The translations under genes were made by a program, and so were the position numbers. Below are positions 45,554 through 63,213 of a stretch of 64,000 nucleotides of DNA, piece after piece. Origin of the DNA: Comamonas sp. BIGb0152 (GTDB taxonomy: Bacteria > Pseudomonadota > Gammaproteobacteria > Burkholderiales > Burkholderiaceae_C). The stretch is from contig NZ_JANUDY010000007.1 in the NCBI RefSeq assembly GCF_024809975.1, forward strand, positions 1 through 64,000, in the 5' to 3' direction. The notes beneath the pieces are model-generated. The model made no database searches. It saw only the letters and a list, made by a program, of their open reading frames with translations, and was not told where the DNA came from. The first letter of the stretch is position 1. The number at the start of each line of letters is the position of its first letter.

Positions 45554-46350
45554 AGCCAGTCCACCAGCTGGTCTCGGCTGCGCCGCACCAGCACATTCAC
45601 CACCACCGCAAGCAGCGCAATCCATACAGCGCTCACCACCCAGACCTGCAGCGCCGGCCACTGGCCCTGCAGCAGCGCCGACTGGTAGCCCATCACATAC
45701 GAGGCCATGGGGTTGAGCCACAGCAGCCAGCGCCAGCCTTGCGGAAACATGGTGATCGGAAACAGGATGGGGGTCAGGTAGATGCCCACCGACAGCGCAA
45801 AGCCTACCAGTTGCACGGTATCGCGCAGGGCTGCAGCAAAGATCGCCAAGGCGTAAGACAGCAGCAAGGTCATCAACAGCTGCATGGCCATCAGCGGCAG
45901 CAAAGCCAGCACCCCCCATTGCATGTGGTGAACGGGGATGTAGCACAAGGCCAGCAGCAGCATCAGCGGGCCAAAGATCCAGCTACTGGCCAGCACGGAT
46001 CGCACGGGGAACAGCACTGGCGGCAGCGGGTTCTTCTGCAGGATCGATCCCGCCTCCAGCAAGCTCCCCATGCCCCGCGAGACCGCATCGCAAAATGCCA
46101 TCCAGGGCAGCGCGCCTACGATCAGGAAGGTACCGACCGCATGGCTGGATGCCCCCTCACCCAGGCGCATCGCGAACACGATATCAAACACCAGGTAGTA
46201 GGCCGCGACGGACAGCAAGGGCTGCAGATAGGGCCAGAGAACACCTAGCGCCGTGCCGGCATGGCGCGCGGCTACTTCGCGGCGCGTCATTACGCCCACC
46301 AGTGCGCGGGCGTTCCAGACTTCTTGGATACTGTGCAAAAAGGTGCGCAT
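45550..46350 (-). CDS. wzm: polysaccharide ABC exporter permease
   Basis: This 266-residue ABC-2-type permease has six predicted helices. It has ALVGVMTRREVAARHAGTALGVLWPYLQPLL at the N-terminus and LTPILFPITMFPQGWRWLLWLNPM near the C-terminus, both typical of Wzm/KpsM. It pairs with the overlapping wzt gene to move a lipid-linked polysaccharide across the inner membrane. It starts the leftward wzm-wzt-MTase-MTase run, about 90 bp after the ppiC gene's stop. Confidence 0.88.
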   Translation of the reverse strand: MRTFLHSIQEVWNARALVGVMTRREVAARHAGTALGVLWPYLQPLLSVAAYYLVFDIVFAMRLGEGASSHAVGTFLIVGALPWMAFCDAVSRGMGSLLEAGSILQKNPLPPVLFPVRSVLASSWIFGPLMLLLALCYIPVHHMQWGVLALLPLMAMQLLMTLLLSYALAIFAAALRDTVQLVGFALSVGIYLTPILFPITMFPQGWRWLLWLNPMASYVMGYQSALLQGQWPALQVWVVSAVWIALLAVVVNVLVRRSRDQLVDWL

Positions 46351-46383: not shown

Positions 46384-46416
46384 AAAAAAGGAGAAGGCCT
46401 CATCAGCCTCCTCCTT
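46384..46416 (-). terminator. rho-independent terminator of the ppiC-type gene
   Basis: GCCTCCTCCTT (46406-46416) pairs with AAGGAGAAGGC (46388-46398) with one mismatch. On the minus strand the stem is followed by a T-run (46389-46384). It lies 24 bp downstream of the gene's stop. Confidence 0.72.
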
Positions 46417-46439: not shown

Positions 46440-47333
46440 TTATTTTGCCTGAGATTTCGCCAAAAATGCTTCCAAGGCCTTTTCATCAAACTTGGCCTTC
46501 TCCGTCACTTTCTCAACCTCGGCGGAACGTGCTGCCTGCAAAGCCTTTTGCAGGAATTGCTTTTCCAGTTCAGGACGCGCTTCCTCGAAGGTCTTTTGCA
46601 CAGCCGGCTTGCGCTCGATGAACTTGATCACGTGGTAGCCGAACTGGCTTTGCACCACAGGCGCAAACTCGCCGGGCTTGCTCAATGCAAAGCCTGCCTT
46701 CTCAAACTCGGGCACCATGCGGCCACGGGCGATGAACCCCAGATCCCCCCCCCGAGCGGCGCTACCAGGATCTTCCGAATTCTCCTTGGCAAGCGTAGCG
46801 AAATCTGCGCCACCTTTTGCCTCCACGAGCAACTTCTCGGCCTTCAGCTTGGCGGCCTCATCTTTACCCTTTACCAGAATGTGTGCCAGATGCACCTCCT
46901 CTGGCGTCGCCATGCTGTCTTTGTTGGCAGCGTAATGGGCCTTGATCTGAGCCTCAATCACCTTGGGATCTGGCGTGTGCTGGGCATTGAACTTGGCGAG
47001 ATACGCGTCAGAGATGACTTTGTCTGCAGCAATACGCGCAGCGGCTGCTACTTCCGGGTCATCCGCAATTCCAGCGGATCGGGCATGGGCGGCCATGGCT
47101 CGCCGCACAAACAGTGCGTGCACCATTTGCTGCACACCGTCCTTATTCGCCAAAAAAGGACCGCGCATTTCTGCAGGCAAACGTTGTACCTCGGCCTGAA
47201 CATCGACGGCCCTGACTTCTGCGCCAGGCACACCGGATACCAGCACTTGGCTGTCGCTGGCCGCAGCGGAGGCTGCCAACGCAAAAACACTCAATAACAT
47301 GCCCACAGGGGCCAACAACAGACGGTTACGCAT
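46440..47333 (-). CDS. periplasmic parvulin-type peptidyl-prolyl isomerase (SurA/PpiC-like)
   Basis: This 297-residue protein has a signal peptide (RNRLLLAPVGMLLSVFALAASAAA) and an N-terminal helical chaperone-type region. One parvulin domain (about 135-235) has EVHLAHILVKGKDEAA, NSEDPGSAARGGDLGFIARGRMVPEFEKAGF and QFGYHVIKFIERKP. The C-terminal helix is charged. It isomerises prolyl bonds and assists folding of secreted or outer-membrane proteins. ATG 47333 is preferred over TTG 47351 because TAGGA precedes it. Directly downstream of the surface-protein terminator, it may serve that substrate. Confidence 0.88.
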   Translation of the reverse strand: MRNRLLLAPVGMLLSVFALAASAAASDSQVLVSGVPGAEVRAVDVQAEVQRLPAEMRGPFLANKDGVQQMVHALFVRRAMAAHARSAGIADDPEVAAAARIAADKVISDAYLAKFNAQHTPDPKVIEAQIKAHYAANKDSMATPEEVHLAHILVKGKDEAAKLKAEKLLVEAKGGADFATLAKENSEDPGSAARGGDLGFIARGRMVPEFEKAGFALSKPGEFAPVVQSQFGYHVIKFIERKPAVQKTFEEARPELEKQFLQKALQAARSAEVEKVTEKAKFDEKALEAFLAKSQAK

Positions 47334-47419
47334 TAGCAGTCCTACTCGCAAAAAGGCTAGGATACCAAATCAGGAGACATGGCATGCCACGATGGCTTTT
47401 GCAAATGTTCCAGAAATGT

Positions 47420-47449
47420 AAAAAGGGCAGAGATTGCTCTCTGCCCTTT
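47420..47449 (-). terminator. strong rho-independent terminator of the surface-protein gene
   Basis: AAAGGGCAGAG (47422-47432) and CTCTGCCCTTT (47439-47449) form a perfect 11-bp stem with a 6-base loop. On the minus strand it is followed by TTTTT (47424-47420). It lies 50 bp after the stop codon. Confidence 0.92.
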
Positions 47450-47499
47450 GGCTTGTTCTCTCAGTATTTCAAGCTATGGCCTCGCGGCCACAGGGTGAA

Positions 47500-49020
47500 T
47501 TACTTGGAGAAACGGTGAGGCCAGGTGATACCGTAGGTACCGCTGAAGCCGTTAGCTGCACCACCGGAGTTGGTCAGCTTGATGAACGAGGCACCGACCA
47601 CTGGCAGAGGACGGGTGTAGTTCACTTGGCCCCAACCGTTTTCGTACTTCACATCAGCGGTCTGACGAGCCACGGTAGCGCCCAGCACGGAGGTACCGGT
47701 GTCCTTGAATGCCAGCACGTTCACTTCACCGCACAGCGAGATGATCTTGGCAGTGCCGGGAGAGATCACAGCGCCGTTACGAACGGAAGATTCTTCACGA
47801 TCGTAGAAGGTGTTGCTGGTGGTGGTCACGCAGATGTTGCCGTCTGGATCAACGTTGGTGGAGCCAGCGTCGAAGAATGGAACATTAGCAGCGGTCACAA
47901 CCAGTGGGTTGAACACACGGTATTGCTTAGCGTCCGTAGCAGCGTAGTTTGCACCAACGCTGTAACGACGGGTAGGCATAGACAGAACCCAGTCAGTCTT
48001 CGCAGAGATGATGGAATCCGTAGCGAACTGGTTGGACACGCCATTGTTAGCCACAGCCTGGGTCAGCAGCGAAGCTTGCGCTTCAGGCGTTGCAGTGGTG
48101 GTCAGGTAAGGGGTCGACAGATCTGGGAAGTCATAGTTCACAGCAGCAACCAGATTCACAGCAGGAGAGGTGTCTGCGAATTGAGCACCAACAGTCTTGA
48201 ACAGTGGATCAGCAGTGTACAGATCGTTGTTCAGGCCGGTCGACTGGTTGTCCTGTGGGAATGCCACGAACTTGCCGCGACCGTTAACACCAGGAGCGCT
48301 CACAGCCTTGATAGCGGTAGCAGCACCGGAGAACGTGGTGGTTTGGGCCACGTTCAGGATGTACCAGTCGCCGGTCAGTTGGCCGGTAGGCGTGTCGTAA
48401 CCCAGAGTCGCAGCGGCCGATTCGGTCGTTGGGTTGATAGCCAGGGTACGCTCCAGCACCGAGTCAGCGCAAGCAGGCGCGCCGTTGGCAGCGTGCTTGA
48501 TGGTCTTGAACAGATCGGAACCTGGCTTCACGTCAGCCATGTTCAGGATTTCGACGTAGCCTTCCTTCGTGTTGTTCACACGCTTTTCAGCAGTCCAGCC
48601 ATTGGCCAGACGGTCTTGCACAAAGCTGACCTTCTGGTTGTGGATGTTCGGGTACGTGCAGCTGTTGTCGGTCGTCATGAAGTACGAACCGTTGGCATCC
48701 GCTTGCACCGAACCGGTCCACACGTCGAAAGGCGACAGGAACACGGTAAAGTCCAAGATATCGTCAGAGTTGGCAGCGCCACGGAAACGAACCTTCAGGG
48801 CCTTACCATTGGTGGTGTCGGTATTCACCACGTGGAACACGGACATGTTGTCATTTTGCGTGGTGAAGTAAGGAACCACCAAAATGTGACCCACGCCGCC
48901 TTCGGATTGCTCGAACGCGGTTGCCGTAGGGGCAGTGAAAGTCGTCGTTTGAGCAGAAGCAGCACCAGCAAAACCGCCAATCATGGCAGCAATGCTCAGA
49001 GCCAGAACATTTTTCTTCAT
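47500..49020 (-). CDS. secreted surface (S-layer/NpdA-like) protein
   Basis: This 506-residue exported protein has a clear signal peptide (KKNVLALSIAAMIGGFAGAASA, cleavage before Q24). The mature chain is rich in Thr, Asn, Ala and Val, with few Lys and Cys. It has four cysteines (121, 184, 397, 430), no membrane helices, and an aromatic C-terminal GTYGITWPHRF. GGAG at 8-bp spacing sets ATG 49020. Its codon choice and base composition differ from its neighbours (many GGT, GTT, AAC and ACC codons, lower GC), as for very highly expressed genes, and it has a strong promoter and terminator. It is flanked by a PPIase gene, a lipoprotein gene and a T2SS operon. I do not identify a family by motif; resemblance to comamonad S-layer/nanopod proteins is inference. 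Confidence 0.7.
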   Translation of the reverse strand: MKKNVLALSIAAMIGGFAGAASAQTTTFTAPTATAFEQSEGGVGHILVVPYFTTQNDNMSVFHVVNTDTTNGKALKVRFRGAANSDDILDFTVFLSPFDVWTGSVQADANGSYFMTTDNSCTYPNIHNQKVSFVQDRLANGWTAEKRVNNTKEGYVEILNMADVKPGSDLFKTIKHAANGAPACADSVLERTLAINPTTESAAATLGYDTPTGQLTGDWYILNVAQTTTFSGAATAIKAVSAPGVNGRGKFVAFPQDNQSTGLNNDLYTADPLFKTVGAQFADTSPAVNLVAAVNYDFPDLSTPYLTTTATPEAQASLLTQAVANNGVSNQFATDSIISAKTDWVLSMPTRRYSVGANYAATDAKQYRVFNPLVVTAANVPFFDAGSTNVDPDGNICVTTTSNTFYDREESSVRNGAVISPGTAKIISLCGEVNVLAFKDTGTSVLGATVARQTADVKYENGWGQVNYTRPLPVVGASFIKLTNSGGAANGFSGTYGITWPHRFSK

Positions 49021-49081
49021 AAACACACTCCAGTTAAAAAAAGTTAGTCAGCGCAACTACCACGATTGTTTACGCTAAGAA

Positions 49082-49111
49082 ATAATAGCATAGCGCCTTC
49101 GGGGTTTGCAA
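49082..49111 (-). promoter_or_regulatory. promoter of the surface-protein gene
   Basis: On the minus strand there is TTGCAA (49111-49106), an 18-bp spacer and TATTAT (49087-49082), preceded by TGC (extended -10). Transcription would start near 49075, giving a leader of about 55 bases that ends in GGAG before ATG 49020. Confidence 0.62.
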
Positions 49112-49199
49112 AGCAAGCGCCTTGTTTTTTTGCAGTAGCTGTTGATAATTTACAACAATCAACTTCATTGCATACAACCCACCTCGCTTGGCGATGGGC

Positions 49200-49616
49200 T
49201 CAGGGCTCAACATAGAGTCGCCACTGACCGTCTTCGAGCAACCAAGTTTGCTTCGAATACATATCAATGGTACCCAGATTTTTTGTGATCAATGGCGGTT
49301 TAACCTTCAAATCGATGCCCACTGCGCACTTTTCTTCGTCGCACTTGACATCGTGGATAGCAGCGGACTGCGCAAAAGTGCCGGGGTAGGCCTTCTTGTA
49401 ATCCTCCAAGGTACGGGCCTTCTGGTAGGCAGCATTGGTATAGGCATAAGCCGCTGCATGGTCGCCCTTGATCCGGGCGTTGGTAAAGGCCAACGCGTTT
49501 TTGGCGACGACCTCTTCCGGCGTTGAGGGCTGAAAGCTGGCGCAGGCCACCATCGACACCGCAGCGCCGATTGCAAACAAAGCTTTCACGGATTGAATAA
49601 GTGCATTAGAGGTCAT
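49200..49616 (-). CDS. small putative lipoprotein
   Basis: This 138-residue protein has a signal sequence (IQSVKALFAIGAAVSMVACAS) ending in a lipobox-like MVAC at Cys25. The mature domain, STPEEVVAKNALAFTNARIKGDHAAAYAYTNAAYQKARTLEDYKKAY, looks like an NTF2/SnoaL-type or tetratricopeptide-like small domain. A CDEEKC pair could form a disulphide. It lies just downstream of gspD in the same direction (27 bp), so it may be the last gene of the T2SS transcript. Function not assignable; a pilotin-like role is possible by position only. Confidence 0.7.
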   Translation of the reverse strand: MTSNALIQSVKALFAIGAAVSMVACASFQPSTPEEVVAKNALAFTNARIKGDHAAAYAYTNAAYQKARTLEDYKKAYPGTFAQSAAIHDVKCDEEKCAVGIDLKVKPPLITKNLGTIDMYSKQTWLLEDGQWRLYVEP

Positions 49617-49643
49617 TTTTCAATATCTTTACAACATAGTTCA

Positions 49644-52082
49644 TTACTGGGCCTGTGCCGGCTGCACCGGTGCAACACGGGATTGCGGCATCGCGGCGCT
49701 GTTCGCACGGGTCAGCAGGTCATCATCATTCAGACCACGCAGGCGGTCGCGCAGTTCCTCGCTCACTTCACGCACATCCACATCGGTACGTACGACACGA
49801 GGGGTCATCACGAGCAGAAGTTCCGTACGCGCGGTTTTTCTAACGGTACTACTGAAGGCTTTGCCGATGATCGGGATGTCTTTCAGCAAAGGAATGCCCG
49901 AGTCGGAGTCTTCATTCCGGTCTCTGATCAAGCCGCCCATGACGATCGATTCACCCGAACGCACGGCCAGCTTGCTGGTCAGTTGGCGGTTGGAGAACTT
50001 GGTCTGTTGCGATGCGGTGTCGAGGCCGGCGCTGTCGATGACCGACTGGTCGATCTGCAAACTGACCATATTGCCGGAATTGACCGAAGGCGTAACATTC
50101 AGAATCACACCGGTGTCCTTCAGCTGGTAGTTGTCTGACAAAAAGCTGGTGGAAGTGATGGTGCTGCTGACCTTCACCGGAATCTGCTCGCCGACCGAGA
50201 TAGATGCCGGGTGGTTGTCCATCACCATCACCGACGGGCTGGACAGCATCTTCACCTGCCCCTGACCCGCGACGGCACTCAAGCGAGCGGCGATATCACC
50301 ACCGCTGTTGAAGAGCGAATAGGTAAAATTGCCCGCTGCAGCAGCAACAGGGCTGGGAGTCGTGTTATTCAAAGAGCCAAGACTACCAGTGCCTGAGTAA
50401 TTACGGCCTCCAATACCACTGTTACGGAACAACCATTCCACACCATACTCCAGGTTGTCATTGAGCGTCACCTCAATGATGCTGGCCTCGATCAGCACCT
50501 GAATGGGAGCTACGTCCAGGCGCTTGAGCGAGGACTCGATCTTGCGGAACTGCGAGCCGGTGGCCCAAACCAGGATGGTGTTGTTGAACTCGTCGGCTAC
50601 CACGCGGATATCGCCAATCGCCGTAGCGGTGATGGTTGGAGCACCACCGCCTTGCTGCTGGGCGTTTCCGCTGTTGCCAAAACGGTTGGCATTGTTGCTG
50701 CCAAATCCGGAGGAAAAACCGGAGGTGCTGCCAAAGCTGTTGAAGCCTCCCGCTCGGTTGTTGTTGTTATTGACGCCGTTCAGGCCTGGGGCGACGCCCG
50801 AGGTCATATTGCCGCCGGCGCCCTGCTGGCCACCAAAGATGCCATTGAGCACCTGGGCCAGGTATTTGGCATTGCCGTTCTGCACGCGGTAGACGTACAG
50901 CTCCGGCTCGCTGCCGCCATAACCGGGCACATCCAGGCGGCGAATCCATTTTTCGGCTTCATCCAGATAAGAGGCACGTGGCGTGATCACCATCAGCGCA
51001 TTGAGGCGCGGAATGGGCAGCACGCGCAGCGCACCAAACAGCGGGTTGGAATCACCCAACGAGGTGAGCAGCGCCGCTGCCGCAGCCGCATTGCCGCTGA
51101 GCTGGTTGTTGGCATTGCTGCCAGCCGCCGCACCGGTGGCCTGACCAGGTCGGCGTGCAGCAGCAGCGCTGGCGGATCCGCCAGCGATCCCCGCGGTCCC
51201 ACCGGAACCTTGCCCCTGGCCCGCCTGGGCACCGCCGCCGTTGACCATTTGCAACGCCGCACTCACTTCTTCAATCGATGCGTGCTTGAGCGGGTAAATA
51301 CCCACCGACATGCCCTTGAGCAAGTCCACGTCAAAAGTCTTGACCATCTCCATCCAGCCTTCGGACTGGGTACGCGTGCCTTGCATGATCAGCACATTGC
51401 GCACGGTGTCCACCTTGATCAGGGCTTCCCCAGGGATGATGGGCTTGAGGATGTTGGACATCTCGGTCGCGCCAATGTATTGCAGCGGCACCACGATCAC
51501 GCCATAGCCCGGTGCCATGCTGCCCGGCGCACCTGCCAGACGGACGTTGCCCACCAGACTGCGCAGCGCCTCGGGCTTGCCCACCTGGTAGGTGCCTCGG
51601 GCATCGCGCACCATGGCCAGGCCATTGGCCTGCAGTGCGGCCTCCAGCAGGAAGACGGCCTTGTCCGGGTCAATCGGCTTCGGGGTGGTCAAGGTCACCG
51701 TGCCTTGCAGCGGCGGGTGCATCACATAGTCGATCTTGAGGATATCGCCCAGCACGGTGCGCACCACCTCGGCCACCGGGGCTTCCTCAAAGCGGAAGCT
51801 GACCGGCGCGCCAGCGGCAACGGGCGCAGACTTGTCGATGTTGAGCAATTTGTCCGTGCCACGCAGCACGCGTGGCTCAGTCGATTCGCCCTCCTCATCG
51901 CCGCCCATCTTGGGGCCGATCATGATGTTGGGCGCTTGAATGACGGGCAGCGAGCCATTGGCTTGCACGGCCGGCTGGGCAGAAGGCAGGGGTGCGGCGG
52001 TTTGCGCATGAAGCGGCAGCAGCACGCCCATCTGGCCCAATGCGACCACCAGTGCAGTCTTGAAAAATACGGGAGACTTCAT
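49644..52082 (-). CDS. gspD: type II secretion system secretin GspD
   Basis: This 812-residue protein has a signal peptide (cleavage after LHA, residue 26). N-domains include VTLTTPKPIDPDKAVFLLEAAL and GVIVVPLQYIGATEMSNILKPIIPGEALIKVD. A Gly/Asn/Ser-rich insert lies around residues 270-335 and 435-490. The secretin core has IQVLIEASIIEVTLNDNLEYG and VKMLSSPSVMVMDNHPASISVGEQIPV, and the C-terminal SIVMGGLIRDRNEDSDSGIPLLKDIPIIG. It forms the outer-membrane channel. It is last in the order E-F-G-H-I-J-K-L-M-C-D, where gspD is often early in other species. Confidence 0.95.
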   Translation of the reverse strand: MKSPVFFKTALVVALGQMGVLLPLHAQTAAPLPSAQPAVQANGSLPVIQAPNIMIGPKMGGDEEGESTEPRVLRGTDKLLNIDKSAPVAAGAPVSFRFEEAPVAEVVRTVLGDILKIDYVMHPPLQGTVTLTTPKPIDPDKAVFLLEAALQANGLAMVRDARGTYQVGKPEALRSLVGNVRLAGAPGSMAPGYGVIVVPLQYIGATEMSNILKPIIPGEALIKVDTVRNVLIMQGTRTQSEGWMEMVKTFDVDLLKGMSVGIYPLKHASIEEVSAALQMVNGGGAQAGQGQGSGGTAGIAGGSASAAAARRPGQATGAAAGSNANNQLSGNAAAAAALLTSLGDSNPLFGALRVLPIPRLNALMVITPRASYLDEAEKWIRRLDVPGYGGSEPELYVYRVQNGNAKYLAQVLNGIFGGQQGAGGNMTSGVAPGLNGVNNNNNRAGGFNSFGSTSGFSSGFGSNNANRFGNSGNAQQQGGGAPTITATAIGDIRVVADEFNNTILVWATGSQFRKIESSLKRLDVAPIQVLIEASIIEVTLNDNLEYGVEWLFRNSGIGGRNYSGTGSLGSLNNTTPSPVAAAAGNFTYSLFNSGGDIAARLSAVAGQGQVKMLSSPSVMVMDNHPASISVGEQIPVKVSSTITSTSFLSDNYQLKDTGVILNVTPSVNSGNMVSLQIDQSVIDSAGLDTASQQTKFSNRQLTSKLAVRSGESIVMGGLIRDRNEDSDSGIPLLKDIPIIGKAFSSTVRKTARTELLLVMTPRVVRTDVDVREVSEELRDRLRGLNDDDLLTRANSAAMPQSRVAPVQPAQAQ

Positions 52083-52125
52083 GGTTCTGACCCTAGGTTC
52101 TATTTATATAGAGGGATTGCCGCGC

Positions 52126-52767
52126 TCAAGGGCGCTGGGCAGCGGTAGAGCCGCCCAGGCTTGCACGGCGACGGGGTGGTGGGGTATCGGTGCCGGCGGG
52201 GGGCTGACCGATCTGGGTAGGTATGGCTCTGGCTGGCATGTTGGTCTCTGTTGCCGGGCCATAGCCCTGTTGCAGCTTGCCCTTTTGCAAGGCGATTTCC
52301 TTGGTCACGCCAGCGCGGGTGAAATACACCCGGTTATCCGCAACCGAACTCAAAGTCCAGCCATCGAGCACGCCCTGCAGTGGCAGGGACTTGTCCTTGC
52401 CCTGGAACTTGATGATGATGCCGCCACTTTTGCCATCCTCGCCGATATAGACACCGCTGAGCACGGCATCGGCCAGGTAGTCCGGCGGTGGCGGTGGTGC
52501 TTCCGCCGCAGCCACGGGGGGCGGAGGCGGCGGGCGCCTGCTGGGCGAGAACAGGGGACGGTCGAGCATGGCCAGAAACTGGCTGTGGTCCATGGTCTGC
52601 GCCTTGCCCAGGCGGGGCACGATACCGTCCAGATTGGCCTTTTGGCCACGGGGAACTTCCCAATGGGCGTTCTTGAGGCCGCCACTGGGCGAGAGCCACA
52701 TCCAGACCAGCAACAACGCCAGCACAACATTGGCCGCCACCAGAATGGCACTTGTATAGCGCTTCAT
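52126..52767 (-). CDS. gspC: type II secretion GspC-like inner-membrane protein
   Basis: This 213-residue protein has one N-terminal membrane helix (TSAILVAANVVLALLLVWMWL) and a periplasmic homology-region-like domain (about 60-160: MLDRPLFSPSRRPPPP and LSGVYIGEDGKSGGIIIKFQGKDKSLPLQGVLDGWTL). There is no PDZ domain; the last 60 residues are Pro/Ser/Arg-rich and end with RASLGGST near residue 205. It would link the inner-membrane platform to GspD. It could also be called GspN. It overlaps gspM by 4 bp. Confidence 0.78.
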   Translation of the reverse strand: MKRYTSAILVAANVVLALLLVWMWLSPSGGLKNAHWEVPRGQKANLDGIVPRLGKAQTMDHSQFLAMLDRPLFSPSRRPPPPPPVAAAEAPPPPPDYLADAVLSGVYIGEDGKSGGIIIKFQGKDKSLPLQGVLDGWTLSSVADNRVYFTRAGVTKEIALQKGKLQQGYGPATETNMPARAIPTQIGQPPAGTDTPPPRRRASLGGSTAAQRP

Positions 52768-53330
52768 GGACGCTCCCTCAACACACTCAAGGTCATCTGG
52801 AGGGTCAAGCGAGGGGCCACCTTATCGTTCATCACCTGCAAGGTTCCCTGGTTTCTCACTTCCACATCCGCCAGCAGCATCACCGGCAGCTGTTCGTTCA
52901 GCACGGCCAGCGCGCTGTCTACGGCCAGCAAGTCCCCTTCCGCACGTACCGACAAGGGAATGCGGTCAAAGCCCTTTTCTTCCTTGGCCGGCAGCACCTG
53001 GCTGCTGACCACGGTCAGGCCGGCAGTGGTCAAAAGGCTGCGCACTTTTTGCTGCACGGCATTGCCGGTCTGCGCCACATCCTGGCTGCCAGGGTAAATA
53101 TATTCGGCGCGGATCTGCAAGGCGCGCTCCAGCGACTGGTCAATCTCTTCACGCTGGAGATCCAGACCACGCAGGCGCGCGTAACGCGGCTCCAGCTCCG
53201 ACAGCCGGGACTGGGCCCACAGGTGCTTGCTGACCACATAGCTGCCCAGAGCGATCAAGGGCAGCAGCACCAGCAGTGCGGTCGCCACCAGGATCAGCAG
53301 CTCTTTGCGATTGGGACGGGTTTCGATCAT
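52764..53330 (-). CDS. gspM: type II secretion protein GspM (PilO-like)
   Basis: This 188-residue protein has a cytoplasmic stub, one helix (ELLILVATALLVLLPLIALGSYVV), a coiled coil, and a ferredoxin-like periplasmic domain with GLTVVSSQVLPAKEEKGFDRIPLSVRAEG and ALAVLNEQLPVMLLADVEV, as in GspMb/PilO. It partners GspL in the inner-membrane platform. It overlaps gspC and gspL by 4 bp each. Confidence 0.85.
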   Translation of the reverse strand: MIETRPNRKELLILVATALLVLLPLIALGSYVVSKHLWAQSRLSELEPRYARLRGLDLQREEIDQSLERALQIRAEYIYPGSQDVAQTGNAVQQKVRSLLTTAGLTVVSSQVLPAKEEKGFDRIPLSVRAEGDLLAVDSALAVLNEQLPVMLLADVEVRNQGTLQVMNDKVAPRLTLQMTLSVLRERP

Positions 53331-54664
53331 GGTTTTTTCCCTCCTGGCTCAGCGGGAGGGGTTACGGTTCCGCCCAGGGTGGCCCGAGGCTTGGTAGTGC
53401 CGCCCAGAGTCGCCTTGGAGGGCGGGGGCGCGGCTTGGCCTGGTGCGGCGGCTGGCCCAGCTGTGCCACTAGGCGGCACGGCGGCGGCTGGCGGCATTGC
53501 AGCAGGTGTAGCGCCCGCTGCAGCGGGCGCTGCCTCTGCACCCGCAGGTATGGTGTTCACCGGCTCGGCAGCCTGCGGCTTGGCCGCAGCCTCCACCTCT
53601 TGCACGGTCTTGGGACCAAATACCTTGGCATCCAGGCCCAGCTCGATGGTGAAGCTCTCTTTGTTGCCCCCGCCCATACGCGTGGCAGCACTGGGGGCTC
53701 GCACATCTTTCACGCCGTCCTGGTTGCTGAGCTTTTGCATCAAGGCCGAGGCATTCTCCGTCAAGCCGGAAATCGTGACCTTGCTGCCTTGGATGCGGGC
53801 CGATTGCAACGCCGTGTCATCGGGCAGCACATTGGTCAGCATGCTGAGCACCTGGACGCCATCAATGCGCTCCGCCAGCAACTCTGACAAACCCGCCACC
53901 TGGTCAGCGCTCTGGATCAGGCTCTCCCGCTTGGCCACCACATCGCCAGTCCTGGCCGCCATGCCCTCAAAGGCATGCACCGCTTCGATCGCACGCAGAC
54001 GCAATTGGGCCGTCGGCGTTGCAGCGATGGCCGCTGCCAGCAGCAGCAGCAGCGCCACCCCGCTGACATTCCACCACAGCCGCTTGCGGCCCCAGTCAAA
54101 CCGTGCCTGCTCGCCAAAACCCTGAAACACCACAGGCCGGCGCTCGGCAGCAAAAACCCACACCTCCGGCTGTGCCAAAGGCTTGGCCGCGCCCGCTGGC
54201 GACTGCATGTGATCGGCTATGCGGGCTTGCAGATAGGGCTCGGTCTGGGCTCTGGAGGCCAGCACCACCAGCAGCTTGACCGCCTTGCTGCTGCGGCTCA
54301 GCTCGGTAAAGCCCCAAAGCAGGTCCTCAGCCGCGAAAGGGCTGATCGCCTGCACCTCCAATTCGGCGGCGCTGGCGCAATCCTGCGGGTCCAGTGCGGG
54401 CAGCGCCACGGTCTTGCGAAGCACCATGTACTCGGGCAGTTCCAGGGCCCAAAAAGCAGGCTCCCGCGCGGGCTTGGCCACAGCCTCGCCACTCTCCCAC
54501 ACCACCGAGGGCGCACCGTCGGCAGGCACCAGACGCAGCATCTGCTCGGGCCGCAGCCATGACAGCGGCGGCCACTGCGGTGCCCTGCGCCAGGTTTTGA
54601 GAATATCGGCCTTGAGCTGGTTCAAATCCAGCCCAAAAAAGCGCGATTCAGTAGAAATTGCCAT
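53327..54664 (-). CDS. gspL: type II secretion protein GspL-like (PilM/PilN-type) with long tail
   Basis: In this 445-residue protein, residues about 1-190 are an actin-like cytoplasmic domain. A transmembrane helix follows near 205-225 (VSGVALLLLLAAAIAATP), then a coiled coil and a PilN-like periplasmic domain (LSMLTNVLPDDTALQSARIQGSKVTISGLTENASALMQKL). The last 85 residues are an Ala/Pro/Gly-rich disordered tail carrying two ATLGGT motifs (about 418-423 and 428-433), similar to ASLGGST in GspC. It recruits GspE to the membrane. It overlaps gspM by 4 bp. Confidence 0.85.
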   Translation of the reverse strand: MAISTESRFFGLDLNQLKADILKTWRRAPQWPPLSWLRPEQMLRLVPADGAPSVVWESGEAVAKPAREPAFWALELPEYMVLRKTVALPALDPQDCASAAELEVQAISPFAAEDLLWGFTELSRSSKAVKLLVVLASRAQTEPYLQARIADHMQSPAGAAKPLAQPEVWVFAAERRPVVFQGFGEQARFDWGRKRLWWNVSGVALLLLLAAAIAATPTAQLRLRAIEAVHAFEGMAARTGDVVAKRESLIQSADQVAGLSELLAERIDGVQVLSMLTNVLPDDTALQSARIQGSKVTISGLTENASALMQKLSNQDGVKDVRAPSAATRMGGGNKESFTIELGLDAKVFGPKTVQEVEAAAKPQAAEPVNTIPAGAEAAPAAAGATPAAMPPAAAVPPSGTAGPAAAPGQAAPPPSKATLGGTTKPRATLGGTVTPPAEPGGKKP

Positions 54665-54682
54665 AAGGGTTCTTTGCTTCGA

Positions 54683-55555
54683 TCAGGATGCCGGCTGCAG
54701 CATCTGGCGCGCTTCAAACGTGTACCAAGGCAGGCCGTCTCGCGTTCTGGCCCCAAAGTACACACTGCGATCTACGAGAAAAATACGTCCATCCGCCATG
54801 GGAACCTGGGCCGTTATCCGGTAACGGCGCTGCGCACCACCGGGGCGCGCCAGGTTGGCATCCAGGCCCGTCGTGTCCAGCCCCGTCTGGCCAGAACCGC
54901 GCGATGCGGCAATACGGGCCGCGATGCCCTCATCACCATTGGCCAACACCCGCAACACCTGGGGTGGCGCGGCCAGCGGGTTGACCGTGGACCCGCCCGA
55001 ACCGGTCGTCGACGCCGTGATCAAGGGCGCGAGTCTAGCATAGAGGTCGTAATCGATACCGGGCACCTGCATCAGGTCTTCTATCGCCTCAAAACGCTCG
55101 GGTCGGCGGCCATCCAGCGAGGAGCGCTCACGCCGATCGAGGATCGCAATCGCAAGCTCTTGCGCCGCTCCGTCAGGCACGCCACCACCAACGCTCAGCA
55201 AGGCATTCAACAGCGGCAGCGAAGCGCCATTGATATTGATAAGGCCGTTGAGCGGCATCACACTGACCGCCACCTGCGTGCCCTGGTAATTGACCGAGGT
55301 CTCGGTGATCTCCTGCAAGATCGTGCGGTCGGCCGCTAACTGTTGCAGCACCATCACCACGGCCGCATCGCCCAATGCCTGGGCGGTGACCTTGTCCTTG
55401 GCCACGCCGACCACCTTGGCCTCCTGGCGCACCACACTGCTGACGCCCGTCACCATCAGGCTGAGCGCAGCCACCAGCCAAAGCACCGCAATCAAGGCCA
55501 TGCCTTGTTGCCTGTGCGCATGCGTGGCGCTGAGTTGTTGCTGTACGCGCATCAT
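54683..55555 (-). CDS. gspK: type II secretion minor pseudopilin GspK
   Basis: This 290-residue protein has a prepilin-type start (RQQG then MALIAVLWLVAALSLMV) lacking Glu5, as is usual for GspK. The larger periplasmic part has AKVVGVAKDKVTAQALGDAAV, PLNGLININGASLPLLNALL, ERFEAIEDLMQVPGI and a Gly-rich C-terminal section. It caps the pseudopilus tip with GspI and GspJ. Start ATG 55555 overlaps the gspJ stop (ATGA). At 290 residues it is at the short end of the family. Confidence 0.86.
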   Translation of the reverse strand: MMRVQQQLSATHAHRQQGMALIAVLWLVAALSLMVTGVSSVVRQEAKVVGVAKDKVTAQALGDAAVVMVLQQLAADRTILQEITETSVNYQGTQVAVSVMPLNGLININGASLPLLNALLSVGGGVPDGAAQELAIAILDRRERSSLDGRRPERFEAIEDLMQVPGIDYDLYARLAPLITASTTGSGGSTVNPLAAPPQVLRVLANGDEGIAARIAASRGSGQTGLDTTGLDANLARPGGAQRRYRITAQVPMADGRIFLVDRSVYFGARTRDGLPWYTFEARQMLQPAS

Positions 55556-56274
55556 CCGTTCGCGCCTCCCAGGCTCGCGCCGCCGCCACCACCACGCGGG
55601 TCGCCTGCGGGCATCACCCGCAGTTGCACCACCACCGGTGCCAGCACCGCGGTCTCGGTCGTCATCACCACCTGCACCGCCTGCGGCAGTTGGTCGATCA
55701 CCGCCCAATCACTGCCCCACTGCGGCGGATCGATGCCACCATTGAGGTACTGGAACGACAGGCCGGTCGCGTGCGACAGCAAGGGGTAGGTTTGCGCAGC
55801 ACCCCAGTCGGGCAGGGTCTGTGCATCCGTCCAAGGCAGGTAGCTCAACACCACCGCAGGCACCCCTTCGTAGTTGCCCAGTGCCAAACGGAAGTGGTAA
55901 CGGCCACCTACGCCATAGCGGGCGGGCATCACGCCCACCCAGCTCATCGACTGGCCACCACCTTCAAAGAAAAATGCGGACGGCGCGGCACTGAGCATGC
56001 CCTGCTGCTGCAGGCCCTGTACCCTTTTGCCAGAGATGCGGCCCAGCACGGCACGCAGAAAATCGGTGCTGGCCCGCGATTCATCCATGCGTTCGAGCCG
56101 GTTGTCGATACTGGTTTCGGTGCGGCCCATCGTGCCCATGGCACCGGCCAGACCCAAGACGATCAGCGACAGCAAGGACATCGCCACCAGCATCTCCACC
56201 AAGGTGAAGCCGGCGGCTGCGCGGCCCAGGCCTTGAGGGGCGTGCCTAGCAAAACGCGTGCGAATGGTTTTCAT
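55552..56274 (-). CDS. gspJ: type II secretion minor pseudopilin GspJ
   Basis: In this 240-residue protein, the prepilin motif is AAAG then FTLVEMLVAMSLLSLIVLGL, cleaved by the prepilin peptidase, with Glu5 present. The periplasmic portion contains GRTETSIDNRLERMDESRAS, SYLPWTDAQTLPDWGAAQTY and a C-terminal Gly-rich ending. It works with GspI and GspK at the pseudopilus tip. It overlaps gspI and gspK by 4 bp. Confidence 0.86.
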   Translation of the reverse strand: MKTIRTRFARHAPQGLGRAAAGFTLVEMLVAMSLLSLIVLGLAGAMGTMGRTETSIDNRLERMDESRASTDFLRAVLGRISGKRVQGLQQQGMLSAAPSAFFFEGGGQSMSWVGVMPARYGVGGRYHFRLALGNYEGVPAVVLSYLPWTDAQTLPDWGAAQTYPLLSHATGLSFQYLNGGIDPPQWGSDWAVIDQLPQAVQVVMTTETAVLAPVVVQLRVMPAGDPRGGGGGASLGGANG

Positions 56275-56708
56275 CCCAGTGGCACCAGGTTCTCTGCCGG
56301 GTCGGCAGGCCTGCGCTGTGCACGCAAGGTGCTGAGCTCAAACACCCGCGGGCGGTCGCCATCAGCCCAGTGCACACTGATATGCACCTCATGCAACACG
56401 GGGATATTCGGGCCTTCGTCGACGCCGGTCTTGAACGGCGCGCTCTGCACACTCCACTGGTAGCCATTGCTCTGGCCCGATTCGTTCCAGCCACTTTCAT
56501 AGACGGAGTCGCGCGAGTCCATGATGGACTGCGCCAGCTGCACCGCATATTGGTAGTGGTCCAGATCGCCCACGCTGCGTGCATTGCTGCCCGTCACCCG
56601 GTAGATCATGCCCAGCGAGATCGCCATGATGGACAGTGCCACCAGGATCTCCAGCAAGGTCATGCCTTGCTGCCGGCGTGGTGGTGAAGATAGCGAACGC
56701 GCGCTCAT
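56271..56708 (-). CDS. gspI: type II secretion minor pseudopilin GspI
   Basis: In this 145-residue protein, prepilin leader PPRRQQG is followed by MTLLEILVALSIMAISLGMIY, then RSVGDLDHYQYAVQLAQSIMDS. The GspI-type TLLEILVALSI core and short length fit. It assembles at the pseudopilus tip. It overlaps gspH and gspJ by 4 bp, part of the tightly coupled H-I-J-K set. Confidence 0.87.
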   Translation of the reverse strand: MSARSLSSPPRRQQGMTLLEILVALSIMAISLGMIYRVTGSNARSVGDLDHYQYAVQLAQSIMDSRDSVYESGWNESGQSNGYQWSVQSAPFKTGVDEGPNIPVLHEVHISVHWADGDRPRVFELSTLRAQRRPADPAENLVPLG

Positions 56709-57202
56709 TGGAACAGCGGCTCCTGGGTGACCCGGCCCGAGAGCCAGTCCACCCGCAAGCGCGTGCCCGAGCCGGTCTTGCGCAGAATCTCCACGCTGCC
56801 CCCGGTGGAGCCGCCCGAGGCCAAAAACACGATCGAAGCCGAGCTATTGGGCACGAACTCGCGGTCCGCCACCGTGGTGCGCAGCTCCACGGCTTCGGGA
56901 ATCTCTTTTTGCGCGCCCGTATAACCATAGTGCCTGCTTTGCAGATCCACGGTAAAGCGTACCGGCTCGCCTTGCGAGACGGCAATATAGCGGGCAGCGC
57001 GCAGCTGGCTGATCATCGTACGCACGGTATCCCGGTACTGCACCCCATCTTTGAGCCGGTCATAGGCGACCGGCGCCATGGCCACCACCAAGGCCATGAT
57101 GGCGAACACCACCATCAGCTCGATCAAGGTGAAGCCTCGATAAGCGGATGGGCGCTTTGCAGCGCGGGGGCGTGGGCTCAGCCATGGCAAGGCAGTGGGC
57201 AC
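56705..57202 (-). CDS. gspH: type II secretion pseudopilin GspH
   Basis: In this 165-residue protein, the prepilin motif is YRG then FTLIELMVVFAIMALVVAMAP. The beta-rich domain contains MISQLRAARYIAVSQGEPVRFTVDLQ and SASIVFLASGGSTGGSVEI. The long basic leader (22 residues) is notable. It is a minor pilin in the pseudopilus, coupled to gspI. Confidence 0.87.
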   Translation of the reverse strand: MPTALPWLSPRPRAAKRPSAYRGFTLIELMVVFAIMALVVAMAPVAYDRLKDGVQYRDTVRTMISQLRAARYIAVSQGEPVRFTVDLQSRHYGYTGAQKEIPEAVELRTTVADREFVPNSSASIVFLASGGSTGGSVEILRKTGSGTRLRVDWLSGRVTQEPLFQ

Positions 57203-57244
57203 AGAGGTTCCTGGTCAGACCGGAAGATAACAACAGCAGCCAGC

Positions 57245-57676
57245 TTATTGCGCGTTGCGCACGTCGGCGGCTTCGCCCTCGCCGCCAGGCTGGCCGTCAG
57301 AGCCCAGGGACAGGATGTCCACCCGGCCGCCGCTGTAGCTGTAGCGGTAAGGGTTGTTCCAAGGGTCATTGGGCACGCCACCCGACAGGTAGGGGCCGTT
57401 CCAGCCGCGCACATTGCCCGGCTGCTTGGCCAGTGCGTCCAGACCTTCTTCGCTGGTCGGGTAGCGGCCGGTATCGAGCTTGAAAATATCCAAGGCCTTT
57501 TGCAAGTCGGCAATCTGCACGCCTGCGGTCTTGGACTTGGCGCCGCCCAGCTGGCTCAGCACCTTGGGGCCGACCAGGCCGGCCAGCAAGGTCAGGATGG
57601 CCAGCACCACCAGCAATTCGATCAAGGTGAAACCACGGCTCTTGCGTGGCGATTTTTGGGTGAAACAGGCCTTCAT
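57245..57676 (-). CDS. gspG: type II secretion major pseudopilin GspG
   Basis: In this 143-residue protein, the leader KSPRKSRG is followed by FTLIELLVVLAILTLLAGLVGP. The GspG core has LQKALDIFKLDTGRYPTSEEGLDAL, RGWNGPYLSGGVPNDPWNNPYRY and ILSLGSDGQPGGEGEAADVRNA, the calcium-binding-loop region of the major pseudopilin. It is preceded by gspF and followed by gspH. Confidence 0.94.
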   Translation of the reverse strand: MKACFTQKSPRKSRGFTLIELLVVLAILTLLAGLVGPKVLSQLGGAKSKTAGVQIADLQKALDIFKLDTGRYPTSEEGLDALAKQPGNVRGWNGPYLSGGVPNDPWNNPYRYSYSGGRVDILSLGSDGQPGGEGEAADVRNAQ

Positions 57677-57703
57677 GGCGGGCTCTCCTTGCAGTATTAA
57701 AAA

Positions 57704-58975
57704 TTAAGCAGCCAAATCGTTGACGGACAGAATACCCATCAAGATAGACACAATGATGGAGGCAATCAGCAGACCGAGCACCAAAATCAGCACCGGCTCG
57801 ATCATGGTCAGGGCGCGTTTGATGCCCGTTTCCACCTCGCGGTTCAATATATTCGACAGCTCCAGCATCATCGATCCCAGGCGGCCGGTTTCTTCACCGA
57901 CACGCACCAGGTTCACGGCCAGCGGCTCGAACACCGTCGTGGTGTTCATGGCCTGCACCATCTTGCCGCCCTCTTTGACGATGGGCGGAATCTTGGCCAG
58001 CTCCTGCTGGATCAAGCGGTTGCTGACCGTATCGGTCGCGATATGCAGCGCCGTGAGCAAGGGCACGCCATTGCCCAGCAAGGTGCCCAGCGAGCGCGAA
58101 TACAAAGTCAGCTGGTACTTGAGCGCCAGGCGCCCCAAAATCGGCATGCGCAGCAACACCCCTTGCCACCACAGCCGCCCTTTGGGCGAGCGCAGCCAGC
58201 CGCGCAGCAGATAGACCACCGCAGCGCCGCCCAGCAACAGCACCCAGCCGTTCTTGCGGAACACCTGGCCGATGGTCATCACAATCTTGGTGGGCGTGGG
58301 CAGTGCATCGCCCATGTCGGTGAACAGTTTTTCAAACTGCGGCACCACAAAGCCCAGCATGGCGATCAGCGACAGGATGGCCACTGCCACCAGAATCATT
58401 GGGTAGATGGTGGCCGAGACCACGCTTTCCTTGAGCGCGCGCTGGCGCTCCAGGTGCTCCACCAAACGCTGCAGCACGGCCGACATCTGGCCGCTGGCCT
58501 CGCCCGAGCGCACCATGTTGATGTAGAAATCCCCAAACAGCTCCTGGTGCGCCATCAAGGCCTTGGACAGCGGCACACCGCCCTTGACCGCCTCAAGCAC
58601 GCCGGTGAGCAGCTCACGCATGCTGTCCTTGAAGGCCATGTCGATCAGCACGCGCAGCGCGTTGTCCAGCGCCAGGCCGGCCTTGAGCATGATCGACAGC
58701 TCCGAGGTCATCGCCAGCACATCGGCGGCCTTGGCTGGGCCTTTTTGCGATTTCCGGGCCTTGGGCTTGACGAGGGCGCCGACCGCAGCGGGCTTGGCAC
58801 CCGACTTGGCGGCCGCCGGCATCAGCGCGGCGGCATCAACGGCATCGACAATGCGCACCGGCGTGAGCTTTTGCGCACGCAAATGCTTTTGCACCGCCGC
58901 TGCATTGGGCGCTTGGAAGGTGCCGCGAACCTGCTCGCCCGCAGCATTGATCGCGTGCCAGGCAAAATCAGCCAT
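57704..58975 (-). CDS. gspF: type II secretion platform protein GspF
   Basis: In this 423-residue protein, a soluble N-terminal region (ADFAWHAINAAGEQVRGTFQAPNA, RAQKLTPVRI) precedes two GspF domains with three membrane helices (near 190-215, 240-260 and 395-420). It has MVRSGEASGQMSAVLQRLVEHLERQRALKESVVSATIYPM and VRVGEETGRLGSMMLELSNILNREV. It forms the inner-membrane assembly platform with GspE. It overlaps gspE by 8 bp. Confidence 0.94.
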   Translation of the reverse strand: MADFAWHAINAAGEQVRGTFQAPNAAAVQKHLRAQKLTPVRIVDAVDAAALMPAAAKSGAKPAAVGALVKPKARKSQKGPAKAADVLAMTSELSIMLKAGLALDNALRVLIDMAFKDSMRELLTGVLEAVKGGVPLSKALMAHQELFGDFYINMVRSGEASGQMSAVLQRLVEHLERQRALKESVVSATIYPMILVAVAILSLIAMLGFVVPQFEKLFTDMGDALPTPTKIVMTIGQVFRKNGWVLLLGGAAVVYLLRGWLRSPKGRLWWQGVLLRMPILGRLALKYQLTLYSRSLGTLLGNGVPLLTALHIATDTVSNRLIQQELAKIPPIVKEGGKMVQAMNTTTVFEPLAVNLVRVGEETGRLGSMMLELSNILNREVETGIKRALTMIEPVLILVLGLLIASIIVSILMGILSVNDLAA

Positions 58976-60704
58976 CGATCTGGTCCTGGGTGACGCGGGC
59001 GACTTCGTCCAAGGTGGTCACGCCGGCAGCCACCTTGCGCAGGCCGTCCTCATGCAGGCTCAGCATGCCGGATTTGGCCGCCAGGTTGAACAGCTCGTTC
59101 GAGTCCTTGCCCGCGTTGATGGCGTTGCGCATCGGCTCATCGAGCACAAACAGCTCATGGATGCCGGTACGGCCCTTGTAGCCGGTGTGGCGGCAGGCAT
59201 TGCAGCCGACACCGCGGTAAATCGGTTGGCCCACGCTGCTAAAGCGCGCCAGGCCAGAGCGCTGGCGCACTTCCTCGCCGGGCTCGTAGGCTTCCTTGCA
59301 ATTACCGCACAAGGTACGCACCAGGCGCTGGGCCAGCACCCCGTTGACCGAGGAGGTGATCAGGTAGCTCTCCACCCCCATGTCCTGCATACGGGTAATG
59401 GCACCGGCGGCGGTGTTGGTGTGCAGGGTGGACAGCACCAAGTGGCCCGTCAGCGCCGATTGCACCGCAATCTGCGCGGTTTCGCCGTCCCGCATTTCAC
59501 CGATCATGATGATGTCCGGATCCTGGCGCAGGATGGAGCGCAGCGCGTTGGCAAAGGTCAGGTTGATCTGGGCATGGACCTGGATCTGGTTGATCCCTTC
59601 GAGCTGGTACTCGACCGGGTCTTCCACGGTAATGATCTTGTTCTCCAGCGCATCGATCTTGGACAGCGCCGCATACAAGGTGGTGGTCTTGCCCGAACCA
59701 GTCGGCCCGGTGACCAGCAAAATCCCGTGCGGGCGGCCCAGCAGGTCGTTGAATTTGGACAGCGTGTCCTTGGCAAAACCCATGGTTTCCAGCTGCAGCC
59801 GCACGCTGGCGCGGTCCAGCACCCGCATCACAATGCTCTCGCCATGCACGGTGGGCACGGTCGAGACCCGCAGATCGAGCTCACGGCCCTTGACGCGCGT
59901 CTTGATACGGCCATCCTGCGGCAGGCGGCGCTCGGCAATGTCCAGATGCGCCATCAGCTTGACCCGCGAACCCACAGCCGCCGACAGGCGCGGCGGCACC
60001 AGCTCGCCGGGGTGGATCACACCGTCGACCCGGTAGCGCACATGCAGGCCATCATCAAACGGCTCCAGATGGATGTCGGAGGCGCGCAGATCGGTCACCT
60101 TGCCGATGATGCTGTTGACCAGGCGAATCACTGGTGCTTCGCTGGCCAGGTCCTTCAGATGCTCGACAAAATCGCCCACATCCGAGCCATCGCCAAACAT
60201 GTCATCGCCGTCGTCTTCTTCGGCTTCGGGCTCGGGCTCCTGCAGCGCTTTTTCAATATCGGCCTGCAGTGCCAGGTGCGGGCGAATCTGCAGCCCGGTC
60301 GACATCTGCAGCGCCTTGATGACAAAGGGATCCTGCGGCGAAGCCATGGCGACCTGCAGCACCCCATCTTGCAGTTGCAAGGGGAACACATGCTGCGAGT
60401 GCTGAAACTCGGGCATCAGGCCCGGCACACTGATCGCCTCGGCCGGGAAATCCGTGCCCAAGGTGAAAGGGATGTTCAGCTGGGTCGCCAGGGCCTGCAT
60501 CAGGTCCGGCTCGGAAACCAGGCCCAGCTGCACCAGCACCTGGCCGATAAGGCTGCCCATCTCCTGCTGCGCCTGCAAAGCACGCTCCAGATCGCGTGGC
60601 GACAGCTTGCCCGCCTGCACCAGCATCTCGCCCAGCAAGGGACGACGCCCGGACTCCAGGGTCAGGGCGGCATCGCTGAAATCGTCGGTGGTGCTGTTGC
60701 TCAT
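58968..60704 (-). CDS. gspE: type II secretion ATPase GspE
   Basis: This 578-residue protein has an N-terminal recruitment domain (RRPLLGEMLVQAGKLSPRDLERALQAQQE) and a catalytic domain with Walker A GPTGSGKT (about 334), Asp-box region DPDIIMIGEMRDGETAQIAVQSAL and HTNTAAGAITRM. A tetracysteine zinc site (CGNC near 468 and CNAC near 500) is present. It powers pseudopilus assembly. It is the first gene of the T2SS operon and lies 109 bp after rfbC in the same direction. Confidence 0.94.
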   Translation of the reverse strand: MSNSTTDDFSDAALTLESGRRPLLGEMLVQAGKLSPRDLERALQAQQEMGSLIGQVLVQLGLVSEPDLMQALATQLNIPFTLGTDFPAEAISVPGLMPEFQHSQHVFPLQLQDGVLQVAMASPQDPFVIKALQMSTGLQIRPHLALQADIEKALQEPEPEAEEDDGDDMFGDGSDVGDFVEHLKDLASEAPVIRLVNSIIGKVTDLRASDIHLEPFDDGLHVRYRVDGVIHPGELVPPRLSAAVGSRVKLMAHLDIAERRLPQDGRIKTRVKGRELDLRVSTVPTVHGESIVMRVLDRASVRLQLETMGFAKDTLSKFNDLLGRPHGILLVTGPTGSGKTTTLYAALSKIDALENKIITVEDPVEYQLEGINQIQVHAQINLTFANALRSILRQDPDIIMIGEMRDGETAQIAVQSALTGHLVLSTLHTNTAAGAITRMQDMGVESYLITSSVNGVLAQRLVRTLCGNCKEAYEPGEEVRQRSGLARFSSVGQPIYRGVGCNACRHTGYKGRTGIHELFVLDEPMRNAINAGKDSNELFNLAAKSGMLSLHEDGLRKVAAGVTTLDEVARVTQDQIDG

Positions 60705-61362: not shown

Positions 61363-61366
61363 GGCT

Positions 61367-62257: not shown

Positions 62258-62260
62258 GGT

Positions 62261-63154: not shown

Positions 63155-63213
63155 TGCATCGTCCTGGAAGGCGGGCGGCTACATGCTGTGCCAGGCCCGC
63201 AAAAATACCGCCC

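Follow-up and report, generated by a model that had tools for sequence, protein, structure and literature searches.

A cassette in a 64,000-nucleotide stretch of Comamonas sp. BIGb0152 (contig NZ_JANUDY010000007.1, positions 1 to 64,000; hereafter the window) probably makes and exports one dominant surface protein, with a type II secretion system (T2SS) and a small lipoprotein (Lpp) for secretion, a PpiC-type peptidyl-prolyl isomerase (PPIase) for folding, O-polysaccharide for anchoring and a conserved leader driving expression. Judged by homology, the 506-residue secreted protein is an NpdA-family surface-layer (S-layer) protein, and its gene is called npdA here. On the minus strand, from 60704 down to 46440, the genes follow each other as gspE-F-G-H-I-J-K-L-M-C-D, Lpp, npdA and the PpiC-type isomerase, so that every part of the one-strand order described in the initial annotation was found in place. 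The island proposed there, running from gspE to the PPIase, holds in its content; its proposed end at the PPIase does not, as the arrangement usually continues into the exporter genes wzm and wzt (each in 56 of 69 testable loci). The genes of the cassette are as follows.

58968..60704, minus strand: gspE, T2SS ATPase (TIGR02533, 636.8 bits, cut-off 630.25)
57704..58975, minus strand: gspF (TIGR02120, 344 bits, below the cut-off of 424; assigned by position)
57245..57676, minus strand: gspG, major pseudopilin (TIGR01710, 148.7 bits, cut-off 88.85)
54683..57202, minus strand: gspH, I, J and K, minor pseudopilins (family matches below cut-offs; order conserved)
53327..54664, minus strand: gspL, PilN domain (PF05137, E=7.6e-12; conserved order)
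52764..53330, minus strand: gspM, XpsM type (NF040576, 79.7 bits, cut-off 60)
52126..52767, minus strand: short gspC-like gene (PF11356, T2SSC, E=5.5e-5, below cut-off; conserved order)
49644..52082, minus strand: gspD, secretin (TIGR02517, 428.9 bits, cut-off 351.35)
49200..49616, minus strand: Lpp, predicted 138-residue NTF2-fold lipoprotein directly after gspD (68-row family, structural model, PDB matches, co-occurrence)
47500..49020, minus strand: npdA, NpdA-family S-layer protein by homology, 506 residues (confident structural model)
46440..47333, minus strand: ppiC-type periplasmic PPIase (PF13616, Rotamase, E=1.1e-27)
45550..46350, minus strand: wzm, permease of an O-antigen-type ATP-binding cassette (ABC) exporter (PF01061, E=4e-12)
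44231..45553, minus strand: wzt, ATPase with a long C-terminal domain (TagH/Wzt-like, below equivalog cut-offs)

GspE, GspD, GspG and GspM score above their NCBIfam cut-offs and GspF, H, I, J and K under theirs, while the PilN domain is the only domain matched in GspL. The best models for M, H and I are XpsM, XpsH and XpsI (H and I below cut-off). By these profile matches, the T2SS of the locus is Xps-like.

Identity and predicted structure of the surface protein

The initial annotation had suggested a protein resembling NpdA, and a profile and alignment check agrees with this. Based on alignment A4 (the window, 49 of the 80 loci described below and four further loci), the protein is 58% identical over its full length to that of Acidovorax delafieldii 2AN (L124), a locus tied to the published 2AN carrier by strain name rather than accession, and 54% identical, again over full length, to that of Delftia acidovorans NBRC 14950. 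Its nearest relatives, among the best 80 of 107, are Comamonas koreensis (85%), C. odontotermitis and Comamonas sp. B21-038. According to PMC10765051, C. koreensis and C. odontotermitis are among the npdA carriers, and NpdA forms the S-layer of Paracidovorax citrulli, as demonstrated by deletion, proteomics and cryo-electron microscopy. An A. delafieldii NpdA is also included in PMC3110197. The N-terminus looks signal-like by eye (MKKNVLALSIAAMIGG..ASA), and removal of 25 residues leaves a mature protein of 51.1 kDa with an isoelectric point of 5.1; the P. citrulli NpdA has a mass of 52.4 kDa (PMC10765051).

No Pfam family matched the protein at E ≤ 1. Its AlphaFold2 (AF2) model is confident, with a predicted local distance difference test (pLDDT) score of 90.3 and a predicted template modelling (pTM) score of 0.91. 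A Foldseek search of the PDB with this model gave no match at E ≤ 0.001 (953 at E ≤ 10), and none was found at E ≤ 1 when PDB sequences were searched with a profile. Residues 43-239 of the model resemble TM1070 (1nc7_A; Z 9.9, root-mean-square deviation 2.4, 103 residues aligned), a structural comparison that barely covers the remaining parts. No S-layer chain occurs among the matches listed in these structure searches, a result that excludes nothing.

Arrays or scattered stand-alone copies of npdA-like genes were observed as well, at L050 (G018:C1:3193778-3200349) and at L038, L039 and L057-L059 (all G035). These copies come without T2SS, Lpp, PpiC or leader, and they are possibly surface variants.

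Conservation and modularity of the cassette

A profile scan of genomes for npdA relatives gave 107 loci, the best 80 of which were retained as the 80-locus set. The other sets consist of 25 loci from family genomes, 150 family genomes, and 399 family genomes used for one tally given below. Some loci in the 25- and 80-locus sets are the same contigs (e.g. L055 and L098), so these two sets are not independent.

Within the 80-locus set, GspD lies within 4 kb upstream of npdA in 60 of the 75 testable loci, and Lpp is found in 60 of 75 (62 with a hidden Markov model), being present at all 60 GspD loci. The most faithful neighbour of npdA is PpiC, which is located downstream in 73 of 76 testable loci; the three misses are stand-alone copies of one genome. 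Wzm and Wzt, again downstream, were scored as given above. As the arrangement recurs in most of the 80 loci, it is not due to chance. The neighbourhood conservation that the initial annotation wished to see checked thus extends across Comamonadaceae, where the T2SS linkage is kept, and a neighbourhood unique to this strain is ruled out. Its inclusion of the PPIase, a protein with a strong Rotamase domain, in the island agrees with the position of this gene downstream of npdA.

Twelve loci of the 25-locus set carry gspE to gspD, Lpp, NpdA, PpiC, Wzm and Wzt in this order, one of them (L045) without gspJ and gspM matches. Of the others, L056 is interrupted by the end of its contig, three have NpdA and PpiC but no T2SS at the locus, and nine are stand-alone copies or fragments lacking the cassette. 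At L088, L098 and L099, where the T2SS is inverted, Lpp still stands behind gspD, and PpiC, Wzm and Wzt are still found with npdA. Because of these gene positions, including those at the inverted loci, the cassette splits by position into a secretion module (T2SS and Lpp) and a substrate module (npdA, ppiC and usually wzm and wzt).

A match to NpdA was found in 19 of the 150 family genomes. Of these 19, 18 have a strong Lpp match (E ≤ 1.2e-28), compared with 0 of the 131 others (Fisher p=2e-22, uncorrected for relatedness), the NpdA-positive genome without one being G009, in which NpdA is only a fragment. For Wzt, 11 candidates were scored per genome, and a close relative (at least 64% identity in the best segment) was present in 16 of 19 against 0 of 131 (Fisher p=7e-19, also uncorrected for relatedness). 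In the draft genome G086, npdA with ppiC, the T2SS with Lpp, and Wzt are on three contigs and are all retained, so that co-retention may not be a matter of linkage alone.

The lipoprotein Lpp

Lpp has the lipobox VAC (by eye). Its family of 68 rows shares the invariant lipid-attachment cysteine, two more invariant cysteines and two invariant tryptophans. The AF2 model is confident (pLDDT 92.5), and its top structural matches in the PDB are NTF2-like with Z of 10-11; a ketosteroid-isomerase-like protein and the N-terminal domain of enterococcal PBP5 both score about 11. Weak Pfam matches to SnoaL-like, DUF4440 and MecA_N agree with an NTF2-like fold.

The pilotins of T2SSs (GspS/AspS) are small lipoproteins encoded beside gspD, as Lpp is. 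Lpp, whose model is NTF2-like, differs from them in sequence: the 68 members together match 11 Pfam families at E ≤ 0.1, and no pilotin family is one of these. A classical pilotin is therefore without sequence support in this Pfam scan. The place of Lpp directly after gspD points to a partner of the secretin, and we take it to be a secretin-side factor for surface-protein export.

The initial annotation had regarded the lipoprotein as an accessory of the surface protein. It is indeed a neighbour within the cassette, belonging by position to gspD; that it serves NpdA only was rejected, since six genomes that lack NpdA and encode another secreted protein, called X here, have a weaker homologue immediately behind the gspD of a sister T2SS.

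Sister loci with another secreted protein

The six NpdA-less loci (L193-L198) all carry gspD, the Lpp homologue, X, Wzm and Wzt. X is a secreted protein of 309-340 residues with 51-64% identity to the first row of its alignment (A7), and no Pfam family was found in the two of six X proteins scanned. A PPIase-domain protein lies between X and Wzm/Wzt in 5 of 6 loci, above the Pfam cut-off in L196 and L197 and just under it in L194, L195 and L198; the short open reading frame at this place in L193 shows no PPIase domain. L195 has as extras an FG-GAP protein (below cut-off) and two glycosyltransferases, one of them WsaF-like.

X and NpdA begin with a similar N-terminal stretch, and comparison of the two with hhalign detects no homology (probability 7%). 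The X genes have a conserved leader of their own, for which RNAalifold gives 19 pairs, none changed on both sides. Across the 399 family genomes, X occurs in 14, NpdA in 53 and both in none. Mutual exclusion is not claimed, as zero co-occurrence is expected by chance with p=0.13.

Tentatively, and with somewhat less than even confidence, these loci could be seen as examples of a general Burkholderiales S-layer chassis, consisting of an Xps-like T2SS, an NTF2-fold Lpp, a PPIase and an O-polysaccharide ABC exporter, which would accept different surface proteins (NpdA, X), each with its own conserved high-expression leader. In that case Lpp would represent a novel type of secretin partner, and the npdA leader, which matches nothing in Rfam, a novel cis-acting element.

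Expression signals of npdA

The following signals flank npdA.

49140..49157, minus strand: inverted repeat TGTTG...CAACA upstream of the npdA promoter (most rows of a 17-row upstream alignment)
49082..49111, minus strand: npdA extended -10 promoter (scan; TG.TA..AT in 17/17 rows)
49021..49075, minus strand: npdA 5' leader, with a possible 5'-terminal hairpin and a TGGAG ribosome site (A6, 64 rows)
47422..47449, minus strand: npdA intrinsic terminator (12-bp perfect stem and T tract)

The scan placed a promoter-like site, TTGCAA-18-TATTAT with TG, at 49111-49082, with hits across the scan at chance level (3 found, 2.9 expected). All 17 unselected upstream regions share the -10 element of this site, TG.TA..AT, without change; they were used instead of alignment A5 because A5 had been chosen partly by its -10 motif. 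The promoter and terminator of its own that the initial annotation had assigned to npdA are thus both recovered, and so is the codon style of a highly expressed gene: with an effective number of codons of 30.6, npdA has the lowest value of the 19 window genes. CGT is used 13 times and CGC once, GCT encodes 39 of 63 alanines, and the neighbours differ. The inverted repeat, a possible operator, lies about 65 bases upstream of the leader and is kept in most of the 17 upstream regions.

Alignment A6 covers the leader in 64 rows, namely the window and 63 of the 80 loci. It omits two truncated loci (L067, L103), three stand-alone copies without a leader (L116, L127, L133), three that are divergent or not recognised (L082, L089, L129) and nine with a similar leader (L061, L069, L072, L076, L084, L091, L109, L128, L139). 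Based on 400 random pairs of these rows, the leader from the -10 element to the start codon has a mean pairwise identity of 0.71 across genera, compared with 0.51 and 0.49 for two 60-base upstream blocks and 0.52 for a block from the middle of the gene. At 0.73, the start of the coding region (48 bases) is on par with the leader. Eight of 150 genomes have a strict 26-base form (at most 2 mismatches), each at a single site directly in front of npdA, and its reversed control has no match in these 150 genomes. The remaining 11 NpdA-positive genomes do not match the strict form. A loose pattern, drawn up after viewing the data, matched 68 of 78 loci. A leader model matched all 5 cassette-linked loci supplied (L043, L044, L052, L055, L204), and at E < 0.01 none of 8 stand-alone-copy loci and none of 6 X loci.

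The leader may raise npdA expression, perhaps as a hairpin protecting the 5' end of the transcript. Folded singly, 48 of 52 distinct leaders show (by eye) a 5' hairpin with GCG/CGC or GCA/UGC as its closing pairs; these pairs form in 86-89% of cells, while slid positions reach no more than 54.5%. Conservation also begins at about the expected transcription start, spans the ribosome site and enters the first 48 coding bases. All of this speaks against the leader working as DNA, i.e. as an operator or promoter element, instead of as RNA. The DNA reading draws on the fact that RNAalifold predicts no consensus structure, that covariation in the pair counts does not clearly exceed that of shuffles and that the mean folding z of the 52 distinct leaders is only -1.25 (single-base shuffles); it is possible, if on the improbable side. 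No Rfam family matched the leader at E ≤ 1 either. With no consensus structure, no Rfam match and no covariation, the leader is claimed here as conserved and not as a proven RNA structure.

Proposed mechanism and alternatives

Family identity, gene order, co-occurrence and leader conservation are what the sequences themselves provide, and from these we infer the following route. The extended -10 promoter and the conserved leader would yield abundant npdA mRNA. A Sec signal peptide would take NpdA across the inner membrane, and the PpiC-type isomerase would aid the folding of NpdA in the periplasm. The linked Xps-like T2SS would export it through GspD, where Lpp would act, most likely by serving docking or assembly in the export of surface proteins. 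Outside the cell, NpdA would assemble into a lattice on O-polysaccharide exported by Wzm/Wzt. The same locus holds dTDP-rhamnose genes, and the lipopolysaccharide (LPS) of D. acidovorans Cs1-4 contains 49% rhamnose (PMC4572682).

Several observations weigh against such a dedicated cassette. Four other genomes of the same genus include one (G128) without NpdA, which is present in the other three. Several loci, among them L122 (Lampropedia), L126 (Vandammella) and L102, have npdA and ppiC with no local T2SS, Lpp or Wzm/Wzt, so the linkage is not obligate. For the stand-alone npdA-like copies, export may need no linked system, and anchoring need not be why the locus lies in a polysaccharide region. 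Finally, genome G069 has a close T2SS (L200, G069:C143:223000-242999; GspD 666 bits) with neither NpdA nor X, and Lpp is absent from this locus (best profile E 13 over 20 kb). This makes it less likely that Lpp generally belongs to this T2SS, and Lpp would accordingly not be a general assembly factor of it.

G069 can also be cited for a general T2SS beside npdA, with NpdA being one substrate of many or leaving via a second T2SS, and with the neighbourhood reflecting a shared surface-polysaccharide region. The choice of substrate does not follow from gene order alone, npdA occurs without a local T2SS at L048, L051, L055, L102, L119, L122 and L126, and the gspG work in P. citrulli disabled both gsp clusters (PMC10765051). 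However, strong Lpp matches are restricted to NpdA-positive genomes, as reported above, and the sister systems have another secreted protein, X, at the same place. The genome of BIGb0152 itself encodes a second T2SS-type GspD with an adjacent GspE (L001, G000:C4:99957-103457), which leaves room for a dedicated system at npdA. We therefore consider a general T2SS unlikely. A secreted adhesin or matrix protein that forms no lattice in this organism is more improbable still. Table 1 of PMC10765051 lists imaged cultures including A. delafieldii 2AN and no Comamonas, and an additional culture in that paper, P. valerianellae, had no clear bead-like S-layer. Against this stand the full-length identities of 54-58% to A. 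delafieldii 2AN and D. acidovorans, both Table 1 species outside its two exceptions, and the codon bias and conserved expression signals of npdA. Export of NpdA as a dominant S-layer protein by its linked T2SS hence remains the reading that we favour.

Relation to known systems

To our knowledge, the way in which Gram-negative S-layer subunits cross the periplasm, exit through a T2SS and attach on the outside is largely open. A compact and conserved parts list of T2SS, Lpp, PPIase, polysaccharide exporter and leader makes each of these steps testable by single genes in tractable environmental bacteria, for instance Delftia or Comamonas, and the cassette also points to a natural system for high-level secretion. 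Among other S-layers, RsaA of Caulobacter is anchored on O-polysaccharide, and we know of no PPIase or NTF2-fold lipoprotein in the A-layer system of Aeromonas.

The nearest known system is that of the NpdA nanopods of Delftia acidovorans Cs1-4 and P. citrulli AAC00-1, with a full-length homologous surface protein and a gsp cluster directly upstream (PMC10765051). That paper, of 2023, describes 12 gsp genes upstream of npdA in a largely conserved cluster; the core of the present finding, the linkage of npdA and T2SS, was thus already known. Unlike the window, with its Lpp and PpiC, the main text of PMC10765051 contains no occurrence of 'lipoprotein' or 'isomerase', and the parts covered hold nothing on Wzm/Wzt or a leader, both of which are present at the window locus. 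A literature search, in which few subscription papers were covered, gave no title or opening of an abstract on Lpp, PpiC, Wzm/Wzt or a leader at npdA. What the comparison adds is an extended and better-resolved parts list for npdA, comprising Lpp, PpiC, Wzm/Wzt and the leader.

More distant parallels exist. The Aeromonas A-layer (VapA/AhsA), likened here by description and not by sequence, is a single-protein tetragonal S-layer with a T2SS-like exporter, and LPS is suspected as the link between S-layer and cell (PMC3658858). The S-layer gene of Slr4 in Pseudoalteromonas tunicata lies immediately downstream of a T2SS cluster; this belongs to another lineage, is likened to NpdA by gene order and not by sequence, and the part of PMC7821379 covered has no occurrence of 'isomerase'. 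The gene for Caulobacter RsaA is clustered with secretion genes too, but these are for Type I secretion (PMC10765051).

Neighbouring genes

Further features were annotated in and beside the cassette.

60814..63972, minus strand: rmlC, rmlA, rmlD and rmlB (dTDP-rhamnose) next to gspE (C, A and D above cut-offs)
46388..46416, minus strand: terminator after ppiC (terminator scan)
43248..44144, minus strand: methyltransferase, often next after wzt (PF08242, E=6e-10)

RmlB is partial at the window end, and its score is just under the cut-off. RmlC is also found upstream of gspE in 6 of the 25 loci.

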